A DNA stretch of 64,000 nucleotides, from contig NZ_CP071051.1 in NCBI RefSeq assembly GCF_017161405.1, positions 2,294,001 to 2,358,000 of the forward strand, written 5' to 3'. Made by a program: the position numbers and the translations under genes. Under the pieces are notes generated by a model, which worked only from the letters and a program-made list of their open reading frames with translations, ran no database searches and was not told the DNA's origin. This document shows positions 5,922-11,597 of the stretch, piece after piece (positions within the stretch are counted from its first letter, which is position 1; every line of letters starts with the position of its first letter). This DNA is from Leucobacter sp. CX169. GTDB lineage: Bacteria; Actinomycetota; Actinomycetes; Actinomycetales; Microbacteriaceae.

Positions 5922-7226
5922 CTAGGGGAAGTCGATGATCGCCAAGTTGAGGGGCAACTCGTTCGTGCGCGCCTCGGGGCGGGAGAGCTTTCCCTGCAGG
6001 AACGTGCCGCTCAGGTAGTCGTCCGCGTCGGCGATTTGCTGCGGAGCGACCTGTCCATCGAAGTCGAAACGCTCAAACGCGTAGGGAAGAGAGTCCGCTT
6101 CGAGGAGGCTCGGCCCGTCCATCAGCTGGAAGTGGAGGTGCGAGGCGTTCGCGTTTCCGGTGTTGCCGAGATGGCCGATGACCTGCCCCCTCTTCACCTT
6201 GTCGCCCGGTTTCACTTTCAGGGACCCGGAGATCATGTGCGCGTACATCGCGTACACGCCATCGCCCAGGTCGAGCACCACGTGGTTTCCGTCGACGTTC
6301 TCGACGGTCAGTTTCGCGGCGAGTTCGGGGTTGCTCGCGGGCAGCACGCCCGGAGCATTCGCTTCCATCCCGTCCAGGATCGAGACCACCGTGGCATCGG
6401 CGACGGCGAGGATGTCGTCGCCGTAGTCGACGTAGCTCTCGTTGCTGGTCTTGTCACCCGAGTAGAACTCGCCCTGGTCGTTCGTGCGCTTCCAATCAAT
6501 TGCGAAGCGCTGGCTGTTGTTGAGCTTGCCATTGACCGACATCACTGAACTGCGATGCGGGAAGCCAGGCTCGCAGCAACCGTTGAGCGCGATCCAGTGC
6601 TCACCACTCAGTGGCGGCGAGATCACCGGCACGGTCTCCGTGGAGATAGCGATGGGGGTCGCCAGGTAGTCCACCGCTTTCGGTTCGCCAAAGGCGGGCG
6701 AATTCGCGCCGGTGACGTACAGGCGGTGCAGCAGTGCACTCGGTACGTCGTCGCGCGAGTCGAGTGCGAAATCGATGAACAAGACTCGGCTCTCCTGCGC
6801 CGGAATCGTCGCGCTGTCGATATAGCCCGCGGGCAGGCCTCGCAGCCGGTTGCAGTCGCCGAACGTGCAATTCGCGTCCACCAATTGCGTCCCCGAGAAG
6901 CTGGCAATGACCGCTTTCGGATCTTTGCCGTCGACTACATCGATGGCGTCCAGGCTCGCCGGCTGCTGTGTGGCATTGGTGAGTTGCAGGTCATAGACGA
7001 CGTGGTACTTGCCGTCCGTGCCCAGGAACGGGAGCGGAGGGTTTCCGATCGGGGAGACGGTGATCGCGGTGAACGCGTCGGGCACCTCTGCGCCGGCGAC
7101 CGAGCCCGCCGGCGGCGGCGCGGTGGTCGCGGCCTTCGGCGCCGAGGAACACCCCGCAAGAAGTGCGACGGTGGCCACGAGCGCTGCGAGAACACTTGCG
7201 CGGCGGGACTGCAGGTTCTTCGACAT
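5922..7226 (-). CDS. Secreted M23 family metallopeptidase lipoprotein
   Basis: A 434-residue lipoprotein. The signal peptide ends in the lipobox LLAGC (Cys about 26), followed by an Ala/Pro-rich linker. The C-terminal half is an M23 (lysostaphin-like) zinc endopeptidase: the first metal ligands lie around FAIDWKR (about residue 243), then GVYAMYAHM, KRGQVIGHLGNTGN and the HLHFQ motif (about residue 363). Such enzymes cut peptidoglycan cross-links. Residues 50-220 form a beta-rich domain of unknown role. The start at 7226 is supported by TAGCCT (7233-7238, minus strand) exactly 6 bases upstream, with no ribosome site, so it is probably leaderless. It borders the low-GC island. Confidence 0.88.
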   Translation of the reverse strand: MSKNLQSRRASVLAALVATVALLAGCSSAPKAATTAPPPAGSVAGAEVPDAFTAITVSPIGNPPLPFLGTDGKYHVVYDLQLTNATQQPASLDAIDVVDGKDPKAVIASFSGTQLVDANCTFGDCNRLRGLPAGYIDSATIPAQESRVLFIDFALDSRDDVPSALLHRLYVTGANSPAFGEPKAVDYLATPIAISTETVPVISPPLSGEHWIALNGCCEPGFPHRSSVMSVNGKLNNSQRFAIDWKRTNDQGEFYSGDKTSNESYVDYGDDILAVADATVVSILDGMEANAPGVLPASNPELAAKLTVENVDGNHVVLDLGDGVYAMYAHMISGSLKVKPGDKVKRGQVIGHLGNTGNANASHLHFQLMDGPSLLEADSLPYAFERFDFDGQVAPQQIADADDYLSGTFLQGKLSRPEARTNELPLNLAIIDFP

Positions 7227-7519
7227 TTCCGGAGGCTATCAGCCACCTTTTTGCACCGTCCAGCGATACAGCTGAACTCAGGACCTAGGTCCCCACCGGA
7301 TGTGCGTCCAGGGCCGCGGCCGCGGAGGCGGGACGCAAGTGTGCGTTCAGCCGGAGCGTCACGACGTTCCCAAACAAAAGAACAACTTCAGGAGCTTCTC
7401 TACCCTGGCTACCGTAATCTGAAGCCTAGCTCAAGCTGGGGCTGCCGAGTTTTGGGACGCCATCGACGGTCAGATTGCTCACTACAGCAATCGCAAGTGC
7501 TGCGCTGCCTGATCATCAC
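7227..7519. other. Left flank of low-GC island, no gene seen
   Basis: About 290 bases between the M23 gene and the end of the island gene. GC falls from about base 7360 onward compared with the sequence to the left. I see no gene, no tRNA and no clear attachment-site repeat. Confidence 0.5.
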
Positions 7520-9292
7520 TCAGTTGGTTAGAGTGTTGTCGAGGTGTGAACCGAGATACCCAACCGTCACGTACCCAACTGCCGAGTAAGTGTCGTCAAA
7601 GTACATTCGAGGCGCTACCCCAGTGAGGTTCGAAAGTTTCACGTGCGCAACCATCTGCCGCCTACCAGAAGGATCAACTTGCTCATCGACCGGAAAGAAC
7701 CTCTGAGCGCCGAGTTTGCCAGTCTTCGTGGTCTCTCCTTCTGACCACGCGACCTTACCTATTCGGACAAGGCCTCCATGAGCACTCGAACGTATGTAGT
7801 TGCTGAGTGATCCGCCAAAACCATCGGTCTTGCGCATTCTTGAATACGCGTCAAACGTGAGCAAGGTGTCCCAGACCTTAGTAACGGCCGCTTCACCGAG
7901 TATCGAATGCTCGTCCAGACCGCACACGTCTTCTCGATCGCCAGAAAACCGAACGCCTTCAAGCTGCCCAGCGTTCTGCAGGTCACCGATTCGATCAATA
8001 AGCTCAACAAAACTAGTTGGGTAGTCGTCTTCTGATTCATCTCCAGATTCTGCCCAGGCAGCGGCCCCCGCACCTACGGCCACAAGTTCGCTTTGCAGAT
8101 ACTCCACGCGCTTCGAGAGCTTCTCAATCTCTCGACTGCTGCGCGAGAACCTGATGTAGGAGTCCTCGGCCTCCATTCGTTCGAGCTCTGCTTCCTCCTG
8201 CGCCCTATCGCGCTCGGCGCTGAAGAAGGCAATGTCACGCAGTGCCTCGTGGGCCATTTCCTCAGCATCCGAAAGCCGCGTTCGCAGATCGGTGACCTCT
8301 GCCTCGATTTCAACGAGTCTCGCCTCGGCGGTGAGGTCTCGCGGCTCAACCTCCGTATTCTCCTGGTGCAACACGTCGAACGGCTGCATCCGGCGCTTGC
8401 GGAGAAACTCATAGTCGGCGTCGCGAAGCGCCTCCGGTAGCTTGATCTCTCTGAGGCGTTTGACCTGCGCATTCCGAAGAATCCGACGAATCCTACGGTC
8501 ATCTGAGCTTTGAAACGTGGCAGGGAGCATCAAGCGGTGGTTGATCGAATCATGCGCATCGGAGAGATCAGCACCGGGAATGAAGGTACGCATACCCCCA
8601 GCAGGCACCGAGTGGCCAAACTGCGCACGGCGGTTGAACTCCTCCCGAGCCTCGGTCGAGAGAACGAAGCCAACCGCGAGACCCTGCATCGCATAGCTAC
8701 GGTCATCGGATTTCGTGATCCACTCCTCGACGGCGAGGCCTTCCGGCGGGGCCGTCACGAAGACAGCTCCGAGCCTGGTGTCGTCCTCAAGAATGCAGAT
8801 GAGCTGCTCAACATAGGATGCCTCAGGAACGGCTTGAAAACCGGTCATCGGCTCCGCGAGACCATCCCGCATCTCGACTTCCTCGAGCAGCGTCGCAACG
8901 AATCCCGGCGTACCTGAGTACTGAACATCTTCCCGGAACTCACCGCCCGCATCGCGGACAGTGAGCGTAGGCGGCTCAATATCCACCCAGAACCAGAGTC
9001 GCCCTTCAGCTACGACAAGCGTTATATGCATCACCGCTGTTTTCGTCGTCGAAACGACGTTGGACCGCATCGGCGGATCCCACTCTTCGACAAGCTCCCA
9101 GCGCAGGCCTGTGGAAGTCTCTGCCGAGAAGCTACTCGCAGTAAGCGTCGCCCCTCGACGATTCTCAACTGTTCCCTCGGTTGGCATCGATGGGAATTTC
9201 TTCCCCAATACCCATCTTCGAAGCACACCGACAATTCGGTCCAGGTTGTCTGTGGTTCCCTCGGCAGTGAGGACAGTTCTGTATCCAAGCAA
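7520..9292 (-). CDS. Large coiled-coil protein of unknown function in a low-GC island
   Basis: A 590-residue protein I do not recognise. The start is TTG at 9292, supported by GAGGAG (9301-9306 on the minus strand) 8 bases upstream. Three parts can be seen: residues 1-310, a mixed alpha/beta region (AGGMRTFIPGADLSDAHDS near 230); a charged coiled coil at about 325-405 with many Glu/Arg heptads; and residues 455-590, ending in a compact beta-rich module with AHVKLSNLTGVAPRMYF and the end VGYLGSHLDNTLTN. That last part recalls C-terminal modules on other actinobacterial mobile-region proteins (from memory, unverified). No Walker, nuclease or membrane motif is obvious. Base composition and codon use are far less GC-biased than all neighbours, which suggests recent transfer. 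A role in defence or toxicity is possible but not shown. Confidence 0.75.
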   Translation of the reverse strand: MLGYRTVLTAEGTTDNLDRIVGVLRRWVLGKKFPSMPTEGTVENRRGATLTASSFSAETSTGLRWELVEEWDPPMRSNVVSTTKTAVMHITLVVAEGRLWFWVDIEPPTLTVRDAGGEFREDVQYSGTPGFVATLLEEVEMRDGLAEPMTGFQAVPEASYVEQLICILEDDTRLGAVFVTAPPEGLAVEEWITKSDDRSYAMQGLAVGFVLSTEAREEFNRRAQFGHSVPAGGMRTFIPGADLSDAHDSINHRLMLPATFQSSDDRRIRRILRNAQVKRLREIKLPEALRDADYEFLRKRRMQPFDVLHQENTEVEPRDLTAEARLVEIEAEVTDLRTRLSDAEEMAHEALRDIAFFSAERDRAQEEAELERMEAEDSYIRFSRSSREIEKLSKRVEYLQSELVAVGAGAAAWAESGDESEDDYPTSFVELIDRIGDLQNAGQLEGVRFSGDREDVCGLDEHSILGEAAVTKVWDTLLTFDAYSRMRKTDGFGGSLSNYIRSSAHGGLVRIGKVAWSEGETTKTGKLGAQRFFPVDEQVDPSGRRQMVAHVKLSNLTGVAPRMYFDDTYSAVGYVTVGYLGSHLDNTLTN

Positions 9293-10086
9293 TGCTGTTA
9301 CTCCTCAGCTTCGATGCCTTAGACGACGACGTCCAAGTTATGCCAGGTTACCGATCGCTACCGACATTTGTTCCATTCGAGAGCTACTACTCATAGACAC
9401 ATTGTCAAAGACCACTCCTTGCAACACGCACCCTGCAGTATCTGATCCAAGCGAGCCCTATGGCAGACAACAGCACACACCGAGCTTCGCCAACCCAAGG
9501 GTCACCGAGGCCACCGAGATTGCGGAGCCGATTCGAACTGCGAGAACTCGCCCAAATCTCTTCAAAGCTGCGAGACAGAGCCTGCGGCGTAGCATGACGA
9601 TGCAGGCGGCAAGCGCCCCTTCTCAACACATAACAATTACGTGGCCGTGAACAAATGAGTCGTGGCGGTCGAAGTACTCACCGATTTCACAAAGTACCTC
9701 GATCTTCCAGCGAGCAGGTCTTAGCAGCAACGCGAACACGCACCGAAGCTCCGGAACCAAACTAGTAAGTTCGGGGCACGCAGTTGCTCATGAGAAAGCT
9801 CCTGAGCGCGGGACTGAAACGGCAAAGCTACAAGATGAATCAAGCTCGCCGAACTCGCACCCACCTCGTTTCCGCCCTTTGCGGCTTCCAAGGCGCTGCA
9901 ATTGCCAAGACGCCCCGGAATGAAAAGATACGCTCAGATCAGCGGCTACGCGCTTCTCAAGATCTGAACTGAATCTAATTGTGCCGACCGATGAAAATCA
10001 GTCAGCACCGGACCCGACCAAAAACATGCCTCAAAAAAACATGTTGAGCCGCAATTAGCAATCAACATGCGCGAGATTATGTATAC
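9293..10086. other. Long non-coding stretch of the low-GC island
   Basis: Nearly 800 bases without a convincing gene on either strand, at the same low GC as the adjacent coiled-coil gene. Short frames here (for example 9784-9972 plus and 9405-9629 minus) have no ribosome site, no recognisable domain and Arg/Ser-rich out-of-frame composition. A-rich runs and two ACATG-containing repeats occur at 10020-10045. It may hold the island gene's promoter and an undetected RNA or attachment site. Confidence 0.5.
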
Positions 10087-11160
10087 CTACACGTTGAAGC
10101 GGAACTCCACGACGTCGCCGTCCTGCATGACGTATTCCTTGCCCTCCATGCGGGCCTTGCCCTGAGCGCGAGCCTCGGCGATCGAGCCGGTCTCGACCAG
10201 GTCATCGAAGGAGATGACCTCGGCCTTAATGAAGCCCTTTTCGAAGTCGGTGTGGATAACGCCGGCGGCCTGCGGCGCCTTTGCGCCGACGGGGATCGTC
10301 CAAGCACGCGACTCCTTCGGACCAGCCGTGAGGTAAGTCTGGAGGCCGAGGGTCTGGAAGCCGATGCGGGCGAGCTGGTCGAGCCCGCTCTCCTCCTGGC
10401 CGATCGAGGCGAGCATCTCTGCAGCGTCCTCTTCGTCGAGCTCAATGAGCTCGCTCTCGAGCTTTGCGTCCAGGAAGATCGCCTTCGCGGGGGCGACGAG
10501 CTTCGCGAGCTCCTCGAGCTTCGCCGCGTCGCCCAAGATGCCCTCGTCGACGTTGAACACGTAGAGGAACGGCTTCGCGGTCAGCAGGCCCAGCTCGCGG
10601 ATCGGCTCCATGTCGACCTTCGAGAGCGACAGCGGCGTGCCAGCGTTGAGCACATCGCGGGCCTCGATGGCGGCCGCGAGGACGGCGGGATCCTGCTTCT
10701 TCCCCTTGATTTCCTTCTCGAGGCGCGGGATAGCCTTCTCGACCGTCTGCAGATCGGCGAGGATCAGCTCGGTGTTAATGGTCTCCATGTCGCTGGCGGG
10801 GTTCACGCCACCGTCGACGTGGATCACGTCGGGATCGCTGAAGCCGCGGACGACCTGAACGATGGCGTCGGCTTCGCGAATAGTCGCGAGGAACTTGTTG
10901 CCCAGACCCTCGCCCTCGCTCGCGCCACGCACGATGCCGGCGATGTCGACGAACGACACGGGAGCCGGCAAGATCCGCTCGGATCCGAAGATCTCGGCCA
11001 GCTTGTTCAGCCGCTTGTCGGGAAGGTTCACGACCCCGACGTTCGGTTCGATCGTCGCGAACGGGTAGTTCGCGGCGAGCACCTGGTTGCGCGTCAGCGC
11101 GTTGAACAGGGTCGACTTGCCGACATTCGGGAGACCGACGATTCCAAGAGTAAGAGCCAC
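10087..11160 (-). CDS. ychF: Redox-regulated ATPase YchF
   Basis: A 357-residue universally conserved Obg-related P-loop protein that prefers ATP and associates with ribosomes. Walker A is [15 protein letters not shown] at residues 8-22, switch/G3 is [17 protein letters not shown], the coiled-coil insertion is at about 130-200, and the C-terminal TGS domain ends [12 protein letters not shown]. Length matches the family exactly from the GTG at 11160. An upstream in-frame start would add 28 residues with no homology. TAGACT lies 8 bases upstream and no ribosome site is visible. The half palindrome at 10688 is read as KQDPA inside the coiled-coil insertion. Confidence 0.97.
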
Positions 11161-11171
11161 GAGAAGCCAGT

Positions 11172-11597
11172 CTAGGCGAGCGCGGGCGGCCACACACCCA
11201 GGATGAGGCTCATCACGAGAATCGTGACGAGTTCGTGGGCGCAATTCAGCACCGTCAGGCCGACTGGTCGGCCCTCAAATGCGTCATGCGTAATGAAGCG
11301 GGCGGCCGTGAGACCGGCCCACAGGATCAAACCAGTCAGGAGCGCGTTCACCAGGAAGCTGCCCCCATAGAAGTTGAACGAGAGGTAGATCGCACCGGCC
11401 AGCACCCAGGCGGAAATGAAGCTCACCACCAGGGTGACCAGGATCGGGCCGACCGCGCTCTTGCCCTCCCCCGGGGTGACCTTCGCGACGCGCATCCAGT
11501 AGGTGCCAAACACCTTCGGGGTGTACCAGATCGACCCAACGAGCATCGTGGAAAGCGTCGCGGCGATGACGGCGAAGAAGTTGATTGCGGGAATCAT
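11172..11597 (-). CDS. DUF1761 family membrane protein
   Basis: A 141-residue integral membrane protein with four predicted transmembrane helices (about residues 4-24, 53-75, 82-100, 115-138). The N-terminal pattern MIPAINFFAVIAATLSTMLVG and the SIWYTPKVFGTYWMR stretch after helix 1 are typical of DUF1761. Function unknown. The ATG at 11597 follows AAGGAGCCACC, a clear ribosome site, so the 29-residue upstream extension is rejected. It lies 12 bases from ychF on the same strand. Confidence 0.85.
   Translation of the reverse strand: MIPAINFFAVIAATLSTMLVGSIWYTPKVFGTYWMRVAKVTPGEGKSAVGPILVTLVVSFISAWVLAGAIYLSFNFYGGSFLVNALLTGLILWAGLTAARFITHDAFEGRPVGLTVLNCAHELVTILVMSLILGVWPPALA

Follow-up and report, generated by a model that had tools for sequence, protein, structure and literature searches.

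What a single large gene is doing in foreign-looking DNA between an M23 lipoprotein gene and ychF is the question raised by positions 7360..10086 of the window, which is the whole stretch of 64,000 nucleotides analysed here from the 2.94-Mb, single-contig genome of Leucobacter sp. CX169. The preliminary description of this DNA had pictured an island of about 2.7 kb with lower GC and different codon use, and both properties have been found. The GC content of the segment, an unstranded feature, is 0.557 (55.7%) versus a mean of 0.684 (sd 0.021) for all 2.7-kb intervals of the 64 kb that do not overlap it, giving a z value of -6.0. The lowest of these other intervals reaches 0.625, and the GC minimum of the window at this scale starts at 7372, within the segment. 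GC3 is 0.62 in the gene of the segment, compared with 0.81–0.88 in the M23 gene, ychF, the DUF1761 gene, dnaQ and rmuC. The adjoining M23 lipoprotein gene (5922–7226) has only domain-level matches to its peptidase part in 39 relatives, and therefore it may be lineage-specific too.

Besides one intact gene, the segment has 0.8 kb in which no credible gene can be recognised, extending from the start of the 590-codon gene to the 3' end of ychF (9293..10086, unstranded). This part had been described as non-coding, in agreement with the ORF list, where it has no ORF longer than 74 aa except for a reading frame that extends antisense from the 590-codon gene, and with an Rfam search, which matched no RNA family there. 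Its DNA shows no similarity to that of the fetched relatives. Neither a tRNA that could define an element nor convincing direct repeats flanking the segment were found, and no integrase marks its ends. There is no second defence gene in the segment, so that the 590-codon gene stands alone in it, and the ORF list and DNA comparison reveal no adjacent antitoxin or other partner gene at 7227–10086.

The gene lies at 7520..9292 on the minus strand and comprises 590 codons, as had been reported, with a TTG start that follows the ribosome-binding site GAGGAG (9301..9306, minus strand; read from the sequence) at a distance of 8 nt. The C-terminal end of its product is VGYLGSHLDNTLTN, which agrees with the preliminary description. 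The closest relative, encoded in genome G322, is 62% identical across residues 1–589, indicating that 7520–9292 is a real gene, and the family alignment shows that the protein keeps every invariant residue of its family. Several routes to an identity have been rejected: Pfam and NCBIfam offered no family for the whole protein apart from weak coiled-coil matches regarded as noise, PHROGs contained nothing strong, and sequence searches of solved structures returned coiled coils and chance matches only. No Pfam toxin matches the protein. A phage origin has also been rejected, as phage records gave no match.

An identity is provided by PADLOC. The HEC-07 model PDLC04161 matches the protein with E=2e-14 and 51 bits, aligning residues 128–383 to model positions 143–389 of 553, which is a partial coverage, and PADLOC HEC-07 models match 45 of 49 aligned family members. 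On sequence grounds, the protein is thus a new, divergent, stand-alone member of HEC-07, a known candidate anti-phage family. According to PMC12988326, which cites the preprint of Payne et al. 2024 as its ref. 15 for these candidates, HEC stands for Hma-embedded candidate and comes from a guilt-by-embedding survey; embedding in Hma is the naming criterion of the HEC group, not a property of the protein.

Apart from the G322 protein, the relatives share 19–29% identity with the window protein, about 25% in most cases, and they keep its whole architecture. A first genome scan with only the 590-aa protein as query gave no relatives. Because no stretch of an alignment of 22 diverse members could be searched with, eight closer relatives were aligned for this purpose. 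A homologue is present in 15 of 398 Microbacteriaceae genomes, the genome under study being one of the 15 and several of the genomes bearing names such as Leifsonia, Curtobacterium and Agromyces. At the level of the phylum, 18 of 296 genomes have a match to the HEC-07 HMM, compared with 0 of 14 control genomes. This distribution indicates that the gene is accessory, not core. Synteny and presence in all relatives, with ordinary composition, would have counted against the preliminary description; among the relatives compared, the gene shows neither synteny nor universal presence. Family members are also carried on actinobacterial plasmids, and some plasmid copies are short forms of 282–338 aa that lack the HEC-07 N-terminal half and keep the C-terminal module (L045:7626-8471, L048:9467-10447 and L049:6221-7234). 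The copy of Nocardia asiatica (L139:7851-9814) is split across two overlapping frames, probably due to a frameshift or a sequencing error.

The full-length AlphaFold model (mean pLDDT 85) divides the protein into four parts, all encoded on the minus strand. Residues 1–127 (8912..9292; pLDDT mostly >90) form a predicted domain of an N-terminal helix and a beta-sheet, which opens with the family motif (G)YR and whose model has no significant match in the PDB. Residues 128–283 (8444..8911) form a predicted thioredoxin-like domain inside the stretch that matches HEC-07, with R173, G204, R235 and H252 invariant in the family alignment. When the model of residues 136–283 was compared by VIA-align, the best match was the thioredoxin domain of calsequestrin (Z 10.5, rmsd 2.6, 104 residues aligned), followed by thioredoxins. 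Hence, the preliminary view of the N-terminal domain as unknown does not hold for all of it, residues 136–283 being thioredoxin-like. The charged coiled coil that had been proposed is seen in the model as a long charged helix at residues 323–405 (8078..8326; DSSP of the model), accompanied by a sub-threshold coiled-coil Pfam match. Residues 425–590 (7523..8020) form the effector-like C-terminal module, in which E518, R531, H550, R562, G578 and H583 are invariant. Modelled alone, this module reaches a pLDDT of 93 and a pTM of 0.89. It is compact, as had been claimed, and it is mixed alpha/beta, not beta-rich. The fold searches gave no match to a housekeeping protein; such a match would have spoken against the preliminary view.

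The C-terminal module of the family is related to NsnC, a protein of the Menshen system. The NsnC model PDLC03912 matches 48 of the 49 aligned family members, with a best E value of 5e-14, and in these proteins the NsnC match covers the C-terminus and the HEC-07 match the N-terminal half. The window protein itself has no NsnC match in the PADLOC search, and its C-terminus aligns throughout to the members that do match. The C-terminal module of the family is therefore, as judged from sequence, homologous to the C-terminus of Menshen NsnC. One full-length NsnC homologue has as its neighbour an ORF whose sequence suggests an AAA-type ATPase. Two full-length homologues (L260 and L261) keep the R, H-x-R/K and R positions and have K where HEC-07 has its last H.

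The predicted fold of the module points to bacterial RNA-cutting toxins. In the model, a strand-helix-helix unit is followed by strands, with small helical insertions, which fits the order of RelE and YoeB. VIA-align lists 24 chains, and 22 of these belong to toxins of the RelE superfamily or to related toxins of toxin-antitoxin systems (YoeB, YafQ, RelE and HigB); among the matches listed there are RNA-cutting RelE toxins and no DNA nuclease. The best of them, 4ltt, aligns 88 of 91 residues with an rmsd of 3.2 and a Z of 6.2, a score below 8 and thus under the clear level of the tool. The catalytic residues of YoeB are E46, R65 and H83, and this E/R/H motif is visible in alignment A5. In the model of the window protein, the invariant residue E518 follows strand 2, R562 starts the penultimate strand and H583 comes after the last strand, so that the three residues would match the topological places of E46, R65 and H83, respectively. 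The module therefore probably folds like toxins of the RelE type. Foldseek against the PDB gave nothing below E = 1 for the module and a viral fold library nothing below E = 0.8. The hhalign comparison of the module with YoeB was negative (P=0.44), as were comparisons of a shorter region with YoeB and ParE. Because these profile comparisons are negative, we call the module RelE-like and do not assign it to RelE.

The genomic neighbourhoods of the relatives connect the family to defence loci. The copy in G322 occupies a different locus, without ychF nearby; genes for a type III methylase and a type III-like restriction helicase are found 4–9 kb away from it, and a resolvase gene and a PDC-S42 gene lie in between. 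Representatives of neighbour clusters were named by PADLOC as HmaA and HmaB (both E = 0), HmaC (4e-244), a type I methylase and restriction enzyme, a Dcm-type methylase, Vsr and an LmuB-like ATPase. Outside Streptomycetaceae, a restriction, Hma or Lamassu-like gene is present within 8 kb in 23 of 51 relatives, and two or more Hma genes adjoin the family gene in 11 of the 51. The Hma system consists of the helicase HmaA, the methylase HmaB and the DUF499 ATPase HmaC and has been grouped with DUF499-centred BREX-related systems (PMC12839542). The same test for neighbour genes is negative at all 29 loci of Streptomycetaceae (0/29). The copies of Kitasatospora, Streptomyces and Streptacidiphilus (L108 and L111–L138) have normal GC and surroundings that are common within each of two groups. 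The gene therefore looks resident there and may have a resident role, and its synteny, away from the defence genes tested, suggests that defence may not be the only role of the family. As read from the sequence, several copies (for example L060, L061, L062 and L064) have only ordinary genes around them, which is also the situation of the window copy, next to which the ORF list and Pfam show no Hma genes.

The position behind ychF bears on how the gene arrived. The M23 gene lacks conservation among relatives and gave no lead to an empty site, and the comparison was made through ychF instead, in 28 relatives with 29 loci (L171–L199). The ychF gene (10087..11193, minus strand) encodes a core GTPase with the Pfam domain YchF-GTPase_C. 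Its listed ORF spans 10087–11244 (385 aa); matches to relatives begin only at about residue 3–12 of the shorter form (368 aa, start at 11193), and the longer ORF, with its TTG start, is probably over-long. On the 5' side of ychF, relatives of dnaQ or rmuC were detected in 12 of the 29 loci, and on the 3' side there is no conservation of the tested neighbour genes of the window. At 23 of the 29 loci, the first kilobase 3' of ychF has lower GC than the first kilobase 5'; the mean difference is 5 points. Ten genes on the 3' side were scanned, and 6 of them are of defence or toxin-antitoxin types (AbiD, D12-class methylase, HEC-06/GmrSD-like, PIN, TIR and ApeA-HEPN); as the ten were picked by eye, this is not an unbiased rate and sets a lower bound of at least 6 of 28 genomes. 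The 3' flank of ychF, being variable, lower in GC and supplied with defence genes, is therefore likely to be a variable cargo site, and it is possibly a defence hot spot. If it is one in Micrococcales, it would be a place to look for further systems.

The earlier suggestion that this foreign DNA plausibly carries a gene for defence or toxicity is thus supported in part, because the protein matches HEC-07, its presence is patchy, its relatives reside in Hma or restriction loci, and its module is shared with NsnC and has RelE-type toxins as nearest folds; the activity itself is a prediction. At about even confidence, we read the gene as a stand-alone member of the HEC-07 family that serves in defence against phages and was gained by horizontal transfer; its product would be a sensor-effector fusion with a RelE/YoeB-like ribonuclease module. 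The analysis itself shows that the segment has a foreign composition, that the protein is homologous to HEC-07, that the family is patchily distributed, that relatives lie in defence neighbourhoods, that the module of the family is homologous to NsnC, and how the domains are laid out in the model. From these we infer sensing, autoinhibition, RNase activity and an abortive infection outcome. The gene would have inserted at the variable site behind ychF after horizontal acquisition. The N-terminal beta domain and the thioredoxin-like domain (residues 1–283) would recognise an infection cue, and the coiled coil (323–405) would dimerise the protein, restrain the effector and couple the sensor to it. 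The released module (425–590) would then act as a RelE/YoeB-like ribonuclease, thereby halting translation in the infected cell. More tentatively, and with somewhat less than even confidence, HEC-07 and Menshen NsnC may share one effector, a divergent RelE-like ribonuclease re-used by defence systems. In HEC-07 this effector would be joined in one chain to a sensor of the thioredoxin-like kind, and in Menshen it would have an ATPase as its partner. On this view, HEC-07 would need no antitoxin and would act as a self-contained 'sensor-RelE' protein of abortive infection.

The main rival also assumes a defence gene and assigns DNA as the target: the C-terminal module, a nuclease or a DNA-binding head, would act on or bind DNA as an accessory to restriction-type systems and would have no RelE-like RNase activity. 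The closest homologous module by sequence is that of NsnC, many relatives lie inside DNA-targeting systems (Hma, type I or III restriction), and the RelE profile comparison is negative, all of which agree with a DNA target. We nevertheless judge it rather unlikely, since the fold matches listed are RNA-cutting toxins without a DNA nuclease among them and since the window copy and other solitary copies (L060, L061, L062 and L064) have no restriction partner. The ribonuclease reading also competes with two explanations that dispense with defence. It is quite improbable that the protein is an actinobacterial regulatory or stress protein, mobile by chance, with the defence neighbourhoods as passengers. 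Such a role would suit the syntenic copies of Kitasatospora, Streptomyces and Streptacidiphilus with their normal GC, away from tested defence genes; however, outside Streptomycetaceae the gene occurs rarely, often has a lower GC than the DNA around it and turns up repeatedly in unrelated defence loci, and it shares its C-terminal module with Menshen NsnC. Least probable, with only a slim chance, is a decaying foreign ORF that has no current function and is kept by chance in the cargo site 3' of ychF. The featureless low-GC DNA of 0.8 kb flanking the gene could be taken in its favour, but an open frame of 590 codons, a ribosome-binding site, a complete set of invariant residues and 62% end-to-end identity to the G322 protein argue against decay.

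Among known systems, HEC-07 of PADLOC-DB is the one to which the window protein is homologous, over residues 128–383. However, the window copy matches less than half of the model length, within the positions given above, and stands alone behind ychF. The Hma system is the common genomic host of the HEC-07-like family, but none of the genes HmaA, HmaB and HmaC lies beside the window gene. With Menshen, the likeness lies in the C-terminal module, which in relatives of the window protein is homologous to NsnC (E to 5e-14). NsnC is, however, a protein of about 316 aa in a multi-gene system, whereas the module is fused here to sensor-like domains in one gene, and NsnA, NsnB and NsnC do not occur together at the window locus, where a single gene lies between the M23 gene and ychF. 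The RelE, YoeB, YafQ and HigB toxins are the nearest solved folds to the module and would resemble it in topology and in the placing of the E, R and H residues; they differ in that there is no profile match and in that the window protein has extra inserted helices, forms a 590-aa fusion and has no antitoxin gene. HEC-07 is named in PADLOC and no account of it has been found in the literature searched, which did not include the source preprint. What is new here is a module common to NsnC and HEC-07 with a possible RelE-like fold, together with a likely cargo site at ychF. Through its ties with NsnC and with RelE-type toxins, this module supplies the named family with a concrete mechanism that can be tested.
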